NCBI RefSeq assembly: GCF_036429475.1
Contig: NZ_CP144125.1
Span: 2,604,001-2,668,000 of the forward strand
Length of the DNA stretch: 64,000 nt
Direction: 5' to 3'
DNA from: Halalkalicoccus sp. CGA53
Lineage (GTDB): Archaea > Halobacteriota > Halobacteria > Halobacteriales > Halalkalicoccaceae
The first letter of the stretch is position 1, and the number at the start of each line of letters is the position of its first letter. Shown here piece by piece: positions 38,113 through 54,285 of this stretch. Under the pieces are notes generated by a model. The model saw nothing but the letters and a program-made list of their open reading frames with translations. It did no database searches and had not been told where the DNA came from. Made by a program: the position numbers and the translations under genes.

Positions 38113-39540
38113 ATGAGACGACTGCCCTCCCGACGGACGTTCCTCGGCGCGATCGGTGCTGCCTCGGTCGGTCTCGCCGGCTGTTCGGACGGGAACGGCG
38201 ACGATCCCGACGACACCGACGACGACGATCCCGACGACACCGGCGACGACGATCCCGACGACACCGGCGACGACGATCCCGACGACGACGAGGAGACGCC
38301 GGAGGAACCGGAGGACGTCACCCCGCCGGCGATCGGTCACGGGACGCTCGTCTCCGACTTCAGCGAGGACCTCGAGTCCTGGATCGCCATGACCGGCGAC
38401 GGGGTGGTCGACGGCGACGAGGAGGCGGCACTCGTCGGCGAGACGGCCGCGCTCGTCCGCGGCGAGGGGGAACGAGCGGGGGTCTTCCGGGCGTTCGACG
38501 AGTTCGACGCCGCCGACCAGCACGTCTCGTTCGCGGTCAGCCTGGAGGAGCCGATGGGCGGACACGTGAACGTCGAGATTCTCGCCCCGTTCCAGAGCGA
38601 CAGCGTGATCACCCGCCGACGTATCCCACGGGAGCTCGACGGCTGGATGCGCATGGACGTCGGCTACACGCAGGACCGCGGCGAGCCCGACTTCGGGAGC
38701 ATAGAGGAGATGCGGATCTGGGTCGACGCAGCCGACGGTGGCGACGACGACGAGGAGGTCGACGACGAGGTCGACACCGACGACATCGTCGAAGACGACG
38801 CGGAGGAAACCGACGACGAGAACGACGTCGACGAGCCCGAGGAGATGGACGAGACCGTCCGGTTCCTCGTCGACGACCTCCGGAGCACGCCGGCCGCCGA
38901 CCGCGGTCAGGTGATGTTCACGTTCAACGGCGGGTTCGAGTCCCACTACACGACGCTGTTCGACGTCATGCAGGACCGTGATTTGCAGGGTGTGATCGGG
39001 ATCGTCCCGCCCACGGTGAACGTCGGGGGGCGGCTCTCGATCGACCAGATGCGCGAGATGCGCGACGCGGGCTGGGACATGGCCTCGTTCCCCCTGCGAA
39101 ACGACGCGCTCCCGGAGATGGAGTCCGAGGAGAAGCGGCAGGTGATCGAGGGCGATCAGTCCTACCTCGAGGGCCGCGGGTTCGAGGAGGGTTCGCGGAC
39201 GTTCATCGCGCCGTACAACCGCATCGATGCGGAGGCGCTCGAGGTCGTCCGCGAGGTCCACGACTGCTCGATCACGTTCGGCGGCTCGCTGAACGCCGCG
39301 CCACCAGCCGATCCGCACATGCTCTCGCGGATCAACGCCGCGGACTTCGGACCGGTCGAACAGTTCACCGGGCTCGCCGAACGGCACAACCAGCTGCTCG
39401 TGCTCAGTCTCGACGAAGTGGGCGACGACGGCGACCTCGACGAGGAGGAGTTCGAGGACCTCCTCGACTTCCTCGAGGACTCCGAACTCGACATCCTCAC
39501 CGCGAGCGAGATGCTCGACCGACGCGACGAGCTGCTCTAG
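38113..39540 (+). CDS. Tat lipoprotein with degenerate polysaccharide-deacetylase domain
   Basis: A 475-residue secreted lipoprotein. A twin-arginine signal (PSRRTFLGAIG) and lipobox LAGCSDG (about 21-27) are followed by Asp-rich repeats, a jelly-roll-like domain (about 75-210), a second acidic linker and a NodB-like domain (about 270-475). In the last, the catalytic TFDDG motif reads TFNGG and the H-xxx-H metal motif is not recognisable, so enzyme activity is doubtful. It may bind cell-surface glycan. The frame start at ATG 38113 has a box 22-29 bp upstream. A mobile element lies 65 bp after the stop. Confidence 0.75.
   Translation: MRRLPSRRTFLGAIGAASVGLAGCSDGNGDDPDDTDDDDPDDTGDDDPDDTGDDDPDDDEETPEEPEDVTPPAIGHGTLVSDFSEDLESWIAMTGDGVVDGDEEAALVGETAALVRGEGERAGVFRAFDEFDAADQHVSFAVSLEEPMGGHVNVEILAPFQSDSVITRRRIPRELDGWMRMDVGYTQDRGEPDFGSIEEMRIWVDAADGGDDDEEVDDEVDTDDIVEDDAEETDDENDVDEPEEMDETVRFLVDDLRSTPAADRGQVMFTFNGGFESHYTTLFDVMQDRDLQGVIGIVPPTVNVGGRLSIDQMREMRDAGWDMASFPLRNDALPEMESEEKRQVIEGDQSYLEGRGFEEGSRTFIAPYNRIDAEALEVVREVHDCSITFGGSLNAAPPADPHMLSRINAADFGPVEQFTGLAERHNQLLVLSLDEVGDDGDLDEEEFEDLLDFLEDSELDILTASEMLDRRDELL
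38200..38286 (+). repeat. 24-bp tandem repeat in a lipoprotein linker
   Basis: About three and a half copies of a 24-bp unit encode the repeated octapeptide DDDPDDTG. Two units (38221-38244 and 38245-38268) are identical, showing recent slippage. Confidence 0.8.
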
Positions 39541-39605
39541 TCCGACGGGCTGCTCCGCCCCGACCGTTCCCGCGGAGGCGTCGCCGACAGGGACGGAACC
39601 GACTC

Positions 39606-39705
39606 ATAGGGATCATCGTAGCCGACCGGATCTCCCAGGCTTACACGCCACCGACGTCCCTCGATTCGCGTTCGAGAGAGTATGAACTTCTACGATGATC
39701 CCTAT
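39606..39705. mobile_element. 100-bp MITE-like element, copy 1
   Basis: The ends are perfect 16-bp inverted repeats, ATAGGGATCATCGTAG at 39606-39621 and its complement at 39690-39705. No protein is encoded. A second element of exactly 100 bp with related ends lies at 54113-54212. Counting the repeat from TAGGG, both copies are flanked by the direct triplet TGA (here on the minus strand), as expected for a 3-bp target duplication. The TGA on the right is the stop codon of the minus-strand membrane protein gene. Confidence 0.75.
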
Positions 39706-40613
39706 CAGTCCTCGACCACCGTCCCCGGCGTCCGTACCGTCCCGGGCGAGGCCGGTCGCTCGGTCCGCCCGCCGAGCGTCTCGAAGTCGAAGTTCTCGAA
39801 CTCGCTCGGAGCGATCCCCTCGACCGCGTAGACGTAGAGCGCCGTCTTCGCGATCCCCCAGATCGTCTGCCCGAGGACGTAGGCGGTGACGACCGCGCCG
39901 AGGACGAGGACGGCCGCGAGGGCGATCCCGGGTCCGGCGAAGACGGCCGCGACGGGAGCCGAGACGGCGAGTGCGAGCGCGACGAGCGCGATGCCGATCA
40001 GCGTCACGACCAGCGTGATGCCGAAGCCGGCACCGATCGTCTCGCCCCACGTCTCCCGAAAGGTCGTCGCGCTCCGCGTGAACATCGAGGTGACCGAGAC
40101 CTCCTCGAAGACGATCACCGGGACGACGAAGAACGTCATGATCGACCAGCCGACCGAGAAGACAGACCGGAGGAGTGCCGCCACCGGGTTGTCCGACTCC
40201 TCGAGGGCCTTGAGGAGGACGCTCACCGTCGCCGCGATCGCCGCCCAGGTCGCGATCGGGACGATCCGTCCCCGCACCGCCCGGAGACACTCGAGCACCC
40301 CGGGCTCCCTCCCGTGGAAGGCGTCGTTCGCGCCGTAGACCAGCGCGGCCGAGAAGTACGTGCTGAAGAAGGTCGTCACGAAGTAGAGGACGAAGAGCAC
40401 GAGGTACTCGATCCCGCTCCCGAACAGGTTCGCGACGAGCAGCGGAAACAGGAAGAGGACGAAGAAGAACGCGCTGAACAGGCCGGCGAGCAGCGGGAAC
40501 GCCAGCAGACGAGGGTGGTTTCGAATGACGCCGAAACTGTCCTTCGAGAGCGTCCAGCCGGTCTTCAGCCGGTCCACGAACCCGATCCGTCTAGTATTAC
40601 TGGAAGATAACAT
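39705..40613 (-). CDS. multi-pass membrane protein (DUF6159-like)
   Basis: A 302-residue membrane protein of unknown function. GFVDRLKTGWTLSKDSFGVIRNHPRLLAFPLLAGL opens it; about six membrane segments follow (around 32-60, 62-85, 110-130, 150-170, 190-215, 220-245) and a soluble tail ends ...TPGTVVED. The opening 'LK-GW-L-KDS-VLR--P-L--FP' resembles the DUF6159 family. ATG 40613 has ctaatacc (minus strand, 40636-40644) at leaderless distance; the frame continuing to 40781 is not needed. The stop TGA abuts the 100-bp element. Confidence 0.75.
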   Translation of the reverse strand: MLSSSNTRRIGFVDRLKTGWTLSKDSFGVIRNHPRLLAFPLLAGLFSAFFFVLFLFPLLVANLFGSGIEYLVLFVLYFVTTFFSTYFSAALVYGANDAFHGREPGVLECLRAVRGRIVPIATWAAIAATVSVLLKALEESDNPVAALLRSVFSVGWSIMTFFVVPVIVFEEVSVTSMFTRSATTFRETWGETIGAGFGITLVVTLIGIALVALALAVSAPVAAVFAGPGIALAAVLVLGAVVTAYVLGQTIWGIAKTALYVYAVEGIAPSEFENFDFETLGGRTERPASPGTVRTPGTVVED

Positions 40614-51925: not shown

Positions 51926-53061
51926 GCGGCGATCCCCCGAGCGGGGGTCGGCTGCGGTCGACGCTCGACCGGGCCGCCGACCGCATGCTGGACGCGTCGG
52001 TCTACGAGCGGATCGGCATCGCCGTGGGCTCGACCGGTCTCGCGCTCCTCTGTGGGCTGGCGATCGTGGCGCTGGCGGGCTACGATCCGGCCCGCTTCGC
52101 CACCCAGCTCGTCGTCGGCTCGTTCGGGAGCGAGCGGGCGTTCGCGCGGACGCTGCAGTTCACGACGCTGTTCATCCTCGCGGGCGTCGCCGTCGCCATC
52201 GCGTTCCGCGCCGGCGTGTTCAACATCGGTGTGCAGGGACAGCTGATCTTCGGCGGTATCGCCTGCGTGCTCTCGATCGTCTGGCTCGCGCCGTACCTCC
52301 CCGACGGGACGGCCGGCGGGGTCGTGTTGATACTCGTGGGTCTGGTCGCCTCCGCCGTCGCCGGCGGGCTCTACGCGGCGCTTCCCGGTGCGCTGAAGGC
52401 GTACTACGGCGCGAACGAGATCATCACGACGATCATGCTGAACTTCGTCGCCATCGGGGTCGTCGGCTGGGCGGTCGACGGACCGCTCCGCCCGGACGAC
52501 GCGCGATCGGTTCGCACCGAGTACCTCCCCGAGAACGTCGGCTTCCCCCAACTCCTCTTCGAGTACCCGAGCTTCTCGCTCGTCGGGCTCGGCCTCGCGC
52601 TCGCGGTCGTCGTCGTTATCTCGGTGGTCGCGACCCGGACGAGCTTCGGCTACGACATGATGACGAGCGGCTACCAGCTTCGGGCGGCGACCTACTCGGG
52701 GGTCGACGCGAGACGGATGATCGTCCAGACGATGACGCTCTCGGGGATGGTCGCCGGGCTGGTCGGTGCGGTGTTCGCGATCATGGTCCAGGGCTACTTC
52801 ATCGATCCCTCCGGGCTGGGCACGTACGGCTTCGACGCGATCGCCGTCAGCCTGCTCGCCGCGAACAACCCTCTGGGAGTGGTCCCCGCGGCGCTGCTGT
52901 TCGGCGCGCTCGACTCCGCGAGCTCGCACGTCCAGATCCATAGCGAGGTGCCCGTCCAGCTGATCGACGGGATCGTCGGCCTCGTCGTCCTGTTCGTCGC
53001 CGCCCCCGAACTCTTCCGGATGATCGCCGAACGGACCGGCCTCGGGGGTGATCGCCGGTGA
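51922..53061 (+). CDS. ABC transporter permease (BMP/nucleoside type) 1
   Basis: A 379-residue permease with about nine to ten membrane segments. FRAGVFNIGVQGQLIFGG is the conserved cytoplasmic-loop motif of this permease class, and YGANEIITTIMLNFVAIG follows. GTG start with 4-bp overlaps at both ends. With the next gene it forms the heterodimeric channel for the BMP binding protein. Confidence 0.9.
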   Translation: MSGDPPSGGRLRSTLDRAADRMLDASVYERIGIAVGSTGLALLCGLAIVALAGYDPARFATQLVVGSFGSERAFARTLQFTTLFILAGVAVAIAFRAGVFNIGVQGQLIFGGIACVLSIVWLAPYLPDGTAGGVVLILVGLVASAVAGGLYAALPGALKAYYGANEIITTIMLNFVAIGVVGWAVDGPLRPDDARSVRTEYLPENVGFPQLLFEYPSFSLVGLGLALAVVVVISVVATRTSFGYDMMTSGYQLRAATYSGVDARRMIVQTMTLSGMVAGLVGAVFAIMVQGYFIDPSGLGTYGFDAIAVSLLAANNPLGVVPAALLFGALDSASSHVQIHSEVPVQLIDGIVGLVVLFVAAPELFRMIAERTGLGGDRR

Positions 53062-54113
53062 GCCTGGCGGAGCTCTCCGCCCGGCGGGGCGTCCGCCTCG
53101 GCGGGCTCGGCCTGCTCGGCGCGGTCGCGCTCGGTGGCGCTCTCGTGGTCCTGTTCGACGTCCCGCTGGGACGGATCGTCACCGTCGGCTTCGTCAACCG
53201 GACGCTGCTGGCCGCGTCGCCGATCGCGCTCGCGGCGATCGGCGGGCTCTACGCCGAGAAGAGCGGCGTGTTCAACATCGGCCTCGAGGGGTTCATGATC
53301 TTCGGGGCGATCAGCGCCGCGGCCGTGCTCTACGGCCTGGGCGGGACCGATCCCACACAGCTCCACGTCTGGGGGGCGGTCGTCGCCGCGGTCGCGTTCT
53401 CTGTCGCGCTCACCGCCGGCTACGCGGTGCTCCTCATCCGGTACAGGGCCGACCAGATCGTCGCGGGACTGGCCGTCTGGTTCATGGGCCTCGGGTTCGC
53501 GCCCTTCGCCGCCTCGCTGATCTGGGGGACGGTACGGAGCCCGGGGCTCACGAGGGTCACCCACTACTCGCTGCCGTACCTCGTCGAGTTCCCGGTCGTC
53601 GGCCCGATCCTCTTCCGGCAGTCGCCGTTCGTCGTGCTCACCGCCCTCCTCGTCGCCGTCTCCTGGGTGGTTCTCTACCGGACGAGATACGGCTACTGGA
53701 TCCAGGCCGCCGGCGACAACCCGGAGGCGCTCGACACCGCGGGCGTGAACGTCAACCGCGTCCGGTACGCGACGGTGATCTTCTCGGGCGTGATGGCCGG
53801 CCTCGGCGGGGCGGTGTTGCTCGCGCACGCGGGGAACTTCATCGGGACCGGCGACACGATGGTCGACGGCCGCGGCTGGATCGCCATCGTCGCCTACCTC
53901 TTCGGCAACTACAACCCGCTGGGTGCGGCCGCCGCGGCGCTACTGTTCGGCGGCCTCGACATGCTTCAGGTGCAGTTCCAGACGGCCGACATCGCGGTCT
54001 CGGGTCGGCTCATGGGGCTCGCCCCGTACGTCGGCGTGATCGTCGTCCTCACGATCTGGGGGAAGACGCGGATGCCCGCGTCGGTCGGCGAGCCCTACGA
54101 GAGCGAGGACTGA
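53058..54113 (+). CDS. ABC transporter permease (BMP/nucleoside type) 2
   Basis: A 351-residue permease partner with about eight to nine membrane segments and the class motif AEKSGVFNIGLEGFMIFGA. GTG start at 53058 overlaps the previous stop by 4 bp. The last codon is followed by TGA, whose final A is the first base of a 100-bp mobile element, so the natural 3' end of this operon has been replaced. Confidence 0.9.
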   Translation: MSLAELSARRGVRLGGLGLLGAVALGGALVVLFDVPLGRIVTVGFVNRTLLAASPIALAAIGGLYAEKSGVFNIGLEGFMIFGAISAAAVLYGLGGTDPTQLHVWGAVVAAVAFSVALTAGYAVLLIRYRADQIVAGLAVWFMGLGFAPFAASLIWGTVRSPGLTRVTHYSLPYLVEFPVVGPILFRQSPFVVLTALLVAVSWVVLYRTRYGYWIQAAGDNPEALDTAGVNVNRVRYATVIFSGVMAGLGGAVLLAHAGNFIGTGDTMVDGRGWIAIVAYLFGNYNPLGAAAAALLFGGLDMLQVQFQTADIAVSGRLMGLAPYVGVIVVLTIWGKTRMPASVGEPYESED

Positions 54114-54212
54114 TAGGGATCGTCGTAGCCGATCACTCCTCCTAGACGGACACATCACCGGTGTCGTTCGGTTCTCAGTCGAGGAACGACGAGTTTCTCC
54201 GACGATCCCTCT
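54113..54212. mobile_element. 100-bp MITE-like element, copy 2
   Basis: ATAGGGATCGTCGTAG at 54113-54128 is matched by the reverse complement of the other end with a few mismatches (AGAGGGATCGTCGGAG). Length is exactly 100 bp, as in copy 1, and the segment after the left end (CCGA, then CTCC-AG, ACA, CACCG) also matches copy 1. TGA lies on both sides as a direct triplet. No ORF. Confidence 0.72.
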
Positions 54213-54285
54213 GAGCCACACGGTCGGCCGTCCCGGTAGTGCCCCCGTCGAGTCCGTACCGATCGCCCCGACCCGGGCCCGTGAA

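Follow-up and report, generated by a model that had tools for sequence, protein, structure and literature searches.

The source genome comprises 4.04 Mb in two contigs, and the window, that is, the whole 64-kb stretch of DNA analysed in this study, lies on the main contig. The window contains two copies of a short inverted-repeat element that we designated family A. Copy 1 occupies positions 39607..39704 on the plus strand. It is 98 bp long, has perfect 15-bp inverted ends and a TCA duplication, and matched the family profile with a score of 70.4 bits (E 7.9e-21). Its left end (39607..39621, plus) reads TAGGGATCATCGTAG, and its right end (39690..39704, minus) is the exact reverse complement. 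The 3-bp target duplication consists of a left TCA at 39604..39606 and a right TCA at 39705..39707, the latter being the minus-strand TGA stop codon of a neighboring gene for a DUF6159 protein (39708..40577, minus strand, stop codon excluded). A polysaccharide-deacetylase-like gene at 38113-39540 also adjoins copy 1, and it carries an acidic repeat, DDPDDTGD, every 24 bases near its start. Copy 2 occupies positions 54114..54211 on the plus strand and is also 98 bp long, with a diverged right end and a profile score of 48.7 bits (E 4.8e-14). It follows a permease gene of the BPD_transp_2 family (53058..54110, plus strand, stop codon excluded). The left TGA of its duplication (54111..54113, plus) is the stop codon of this gene, and the right TGA lies in the sequence at 54212..54214.

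Both copies have the outer sequence TAGGG...CCCTA. The inverted ends matched at 15/15 positions in copy 1 and at 13/15 in copy 2, in which the right end is GAGGGATCGTCGGAG. The interiors were identical at 42 of 68 positions without gaps, above all 20,000 shuffles (mean 17.6, maximum 34). No credible ORF was found in either copy, as all six frames were stopped in copy 1 and 4/6 in copy 2. An earlier note on this DNA described two 100-bp elements with inverted ends, related interiors and no ORF, all flanked by TGA. Both elements are present where it placed them, and their ends, interiors and lack of an ORF were as described. The element itself is 98 bp, since the 100 bp include one base of the flanking triplet per side. 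The flanking TGA holds for copy 2 (TGA/TGA on the plus strand); copy 1 is flanked by TCA/TCA, and TGA appears there only when the other strand is read. The 64-kb window was scanned blind for an exact TSA or AST repeat (S = C or G), inverted ends of at least 12/15 and a length of 57-166 bp, and only four places were returned, among which copy 1 ranked best and copy 2 third.

The earlier note regarded the two copies as a small family. A genome search of the kind it proposed, by BLASTN with copy 1 as the query, gave 40 matches in the own genome, and a profile built from 52 diverse family A copies found 69. The family of two thus became one with dozens of copies per genome and an order-wide distribution. 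With the same profile, two congeners gave at least 102 and 33 copies, and the sister genus gave 52 and 73 copies in two genomes and 0 in three others; these counts all derive from searches. Copy numbers within one family were patchy (52, 73, 4 and 1, plus the three zeros in the sister genus). Family A ends were present in 46/392 genomes of the order with one mismatch allowed, so that some single matches are possibly due to chance, and a pattern control was near zero. When one genome per species was scanned across 84,980 prokaryote species, intact end pairs were found in haloarchaea, in genera including Natrarchaeobius, Salinadaptatus, Natronolimnohabitans, Halapricum, Halorussus, Halalkalirubrum and Natronomonas. 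The list also includes one MAG titled only 'Euryarchaeota archaeon'. A plasmid search found one relative, in Natronosalvus, and a plasmid search with the own copy gave no match. No paired ends were found in the viral contigs searched; five single-end matches there had no element structure and were attributed to chance.

Family A has a length of 98 bp in the genus of the source genome, and mostly of 98-101 bp across haloarchaea. The 15-bp inverted ends, TAGGGAT(T/C)ATCGTAG, were kept in the 52 diverse copies. The subterminal motifs were also conserved and are asymmetric, with GTAGCCA.CCGGA on the left and CTATGAACT.CTACG on the right. In genome G001, length classes of 98 bp and 101 bp coexist with different interiors (e.g. 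L125:2380-2480, L133:1260-1360 and L136:315-415), and each class includes identical or near-identical copies.

Two related mini-elements were observed. Family B is about 80 bp long, with ends TACGGATTRCTGTAR, a strong internal hairpin and TSA flanks, and was seen at L082:3457-3538, L082:3642-3720, L097:3292-3473, L126:1768-1846 and L112:3232-3311. It sometimes directly abuts family A copies or is interrupted by one. Family C is about 78 bp long, with ends TACTGTCGGCTGTAA and TSA-like flanks (L051:2749-2826, L164:2412-2489 and L090:3342-3419); the L090 element lies between two family A copies. ACT or AGT was duplicated instead of TSA in the family A copies at L135:982-1080, L143:1489-1587, L146:3365-3463, L154:7234-7332 and L173:3235-3333, and for those in L146 and L154 the insertion site lies within a family B element. 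The end pattern TA..G......GTA and the TSA duplication are common to families A, B and C.

We then examined the flanks of 152 distinct family A copies. Exact 3-bp duplications were present in 119/152, compared with a mean of 51 and a maximum of 67 when the right triplets were shuffled in 2,000 trials. The identical triplets were 110 TSA, 6 AST and 3 other, and the middle base agreed in 110/112 TSA pairs. The insertion site is a palindrome extended by C before and G after the triplet. The remaining 33/152 copies had no exact duplication, which decay could explain. Five family A copies were nested in family B mini-elements of 78-80 bp, and removal of the insert with one triplet gave an intact family B element with its own matching flanks. 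An insertion at a stop codon in G005 aligned with element-free sequence in G009. Window copy 2 was absent behind the same permease gene in two congeners (G001 and G002), where the sequence further downstream differs. These results demonstrate insertion with a 3-bp duplication at a short palindromic target, by an element with conserved ends, asymmetric subterminal motifs and nearly fixed length.

Identical copies were found at unrelated sites in G001, and pairs of 98-99% identity with unrelated flanks were found in the own genome. Judged from these sequences, family A has moved recently. Copies in G000 and G001 (L043:2743-2840 and L149:2335-2432) lie behind the stop codon of the same gene but are oppositely oriented, so that this stop codon was apparently hit twice, by independent insertions. 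By anatomy, family A is a MITE: it is short, has inverted ends and a target duplication, and occurs in many copies at unrelated sites. The earlier note had read the pair as a transposed, non-coding miniature inverted-repeat family with a 3-bp TNA-type duplication, and this reading was borne out.

We examined the positions of the copies relative to genes. Genes were called with a simple gene finder that is based on codon usage and was trained on the window alone. The table held 40 rows, and 38 of them were real copies; two weak matches, at window 62270 and L016 2444, were rejected because they had no duplication, and the former covers only part of the model. None of the 38 assessed copies on the main contig was inside a gene. 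In 25 of them, both window copies included, the duplicated triplet was the TGA stop codon of the neighboring gene (overlapping it in two). The observed 66% at stop codons compares with 23% expected from weighted site availability (p = 2e-8), under a model in which insertion follows site preference only and copies inside genes are lost. Against an unweighted CTSAG expectation of 36%, the excess was weaker (p about 0.001). The excess depends on this gene finder, and the share was lower in other genomes, at 34/113 copies, with fewer genes called there. The stop-codon bias may reflect targeting or purifying selection, in which harmful insertions are lost.

Taken together, the stretches in the window are very probably copies of an orphan non-autonomous MITE, family A, moved in trans by an inferred transposase with a CTSAG-like target. 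A cut-and-paste transposase of the DDE type, supplied in trans, would bind the element ends and probably also recognise the subterminal motifs. The element would enter a short palindromic target around C-TSA-G, or less often AST, and at gene ends the 3-bp duplication would recreate TGA (..C TGA G..). Because such a target often overlaps gene ends and the duplication keeps TGA in place, many surviving copies are located precisely at stop codons, with the protein unchanged. Mobilisation in trans is proposed by analogy, because the searches revealed neither an autonomous element nor a transposase that carries these ends. Further points against this reading are the conservation of the interior across genera beyond what a passive MITE would need, the copies lacking an exact duplication, and the lower stop-codon share in other genomes.

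We searched for the mover in several ways. Pattern searches of the own genome and genus, and of 392 genomes of the order, found no autonomous partner with these ends. When 40 stretches around unpaired-looking ends were examined, all held copies of about 100 bp, some with a decayed partner end, and no long element. The single-ended loci L084, L086 and L105 proved on direct reading to be decayed copies. The full-length element with the same ends that the earlier note anticipated was thus absent from every stretch examined.

Part of the IS5 family makes 3-bp TNA duplications. On this ground, the earlier note suggested that a matching full element may mobilise the copies, which would then be passive remnants of an insertion sequence of the IS5 family in or near the own genome. 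Duplications of this kind also occur in the related PIF/Harbinger group (PMC2213677). The DDE_Tnp_1 loci checked in the own genome had neither these ends nor any 3-bp duplication; those with readable ends had duplications of mostly 8 bp and, in one case, probably 5 bp. DDE_Tnp_4 and DUF4096, Pfam families related to the IS5/Harbinger transposases, had no match in 11 genomes. Moreover, the ends begin with TAGGG, and no long element carries them in the genomes examined. An IS5-family source is therefore unlikely.

The position of many copies directly behind genes would also fit a conserved non-coding RNA, an attenuator or a terminator-like element at gene ends that spread by recombination instead of transposition. 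The ends can pair as a long hairpin, single copies fold better than shuffles, and the interior motifs are kept across genera. However, the consensus fold of the 52 copies has only the end pairs and no interior covariation, and no Rfam family matches the window element. The matching triplets lie outside the hairpin, because they are direct and not complementary. According to the earlier note, this kind of element would be indicated if distant species carried these sequences at orthologous sites. What we found favors transposition: the distribution is patchy, with zero copies in three sister-genus genomes, two congeners lack copy 2, and the copies nested in other mini-elements, whose removal restores the target, largely refute the alternative. 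We consider it very improbable. A mariner/IS630-type element with a TA duplication, in which the terminal TA found at both ends of most copies would be target and not element, is the least credible, since an exact match of the outer triplets in 119/152 copies is not expected from TA duplication and the nested family B sites are restored with the outer triplet as the duplication (e.g. in L154, TACGGAGTACT joined to GTAACC), which makes the terminal TA part of the element.

REPINs are inverted-repeat units of about 100 bp that have no enzyme of their own, are mostly intergenic and are moved by RAYT enzymes. For this enzyme type, no target duplication is expected. By description, family A resembles REPINs in its size, inverted repeats, lack of an enzyme and mostly intergenic location, and it differs by the 3-bp duplication. 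As a more speculative extension of the MITE reading, which we hold to be doubtful, families A, B and C are perhaps all moved by a single dedicated transposase. Its gene, host-borne or single-copy, would lack flanking ends of this type, and the enzyme would favor TGA stop codons as safe sites. Haloarchaea would in that case have a counterpart of the RAYT/REPIN system in which the enzyme is of the cut-and-paste kind.

Family A shares with known MITEs its short length, lack of coding capacity, inverted ends, target duplication, high copy number and lack of a transposase gene. Unlike known MITEs, it had no autonomous partner with related ends in our searches, and it forms one lineage with nearly fixed length, an interior conserved order-wide and a strong association with stop codons. 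The PIF/Harbinger group makes 3-bp TTA/TAA duplications and has inverted ends of 14-25 bp carrying G(N)5GTT (PMC2213677). Family A is similar to this group and to IS5-type elements in having a 3-bp duplication with T and A outermost, and its inverted ends are comparable in length to those of PIF/Harbinger. It differs from PIF/Harbinger in its TSA/AST duplications and in its ends, which start with TAGGG and were found with no such transposase.

A previous report described SMR-A of Haloquadratum walsbyi, which is about 110 bp long, has conspicuous inverted ends with no relationship to known transposons, reaches up to dozens of copies, inserts into other mobile elements and has no known mover (PMC3119063). 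These features, including the question of the mover, are similar to those of family A. SMRs were described as inserting without target duplication, with a preference for the palindromes of PATE and IS605 (PMC3119063), and for this reason we did not assign family A to them. Compared by description, family A differs from SMR-A in its clear 3-bp duplication and in having most copies at gene ends. In the literature searched, the family A end sequence was not found, and nothing surfaced beyond the study on Haloquadratum and general papers on MITEs. Family A is a real and abundant haloarchaeal family of orphan MITEs that has been active recently, and it is new as far as the literature was searched.

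These results give an abundant haloarchaeal repeat a testable anatomy, and the question of its mover has been posed before, for the Haloquadratum small mobile repeats. If the preference for stop codons is real targeting, it would be a simple way to insert beside genes without breaking them, and candidate transposases could readily be tested by the target rule. Family A copies can also serve as clean markers of recent insertion in the annotation of haloarchaeal genomes.
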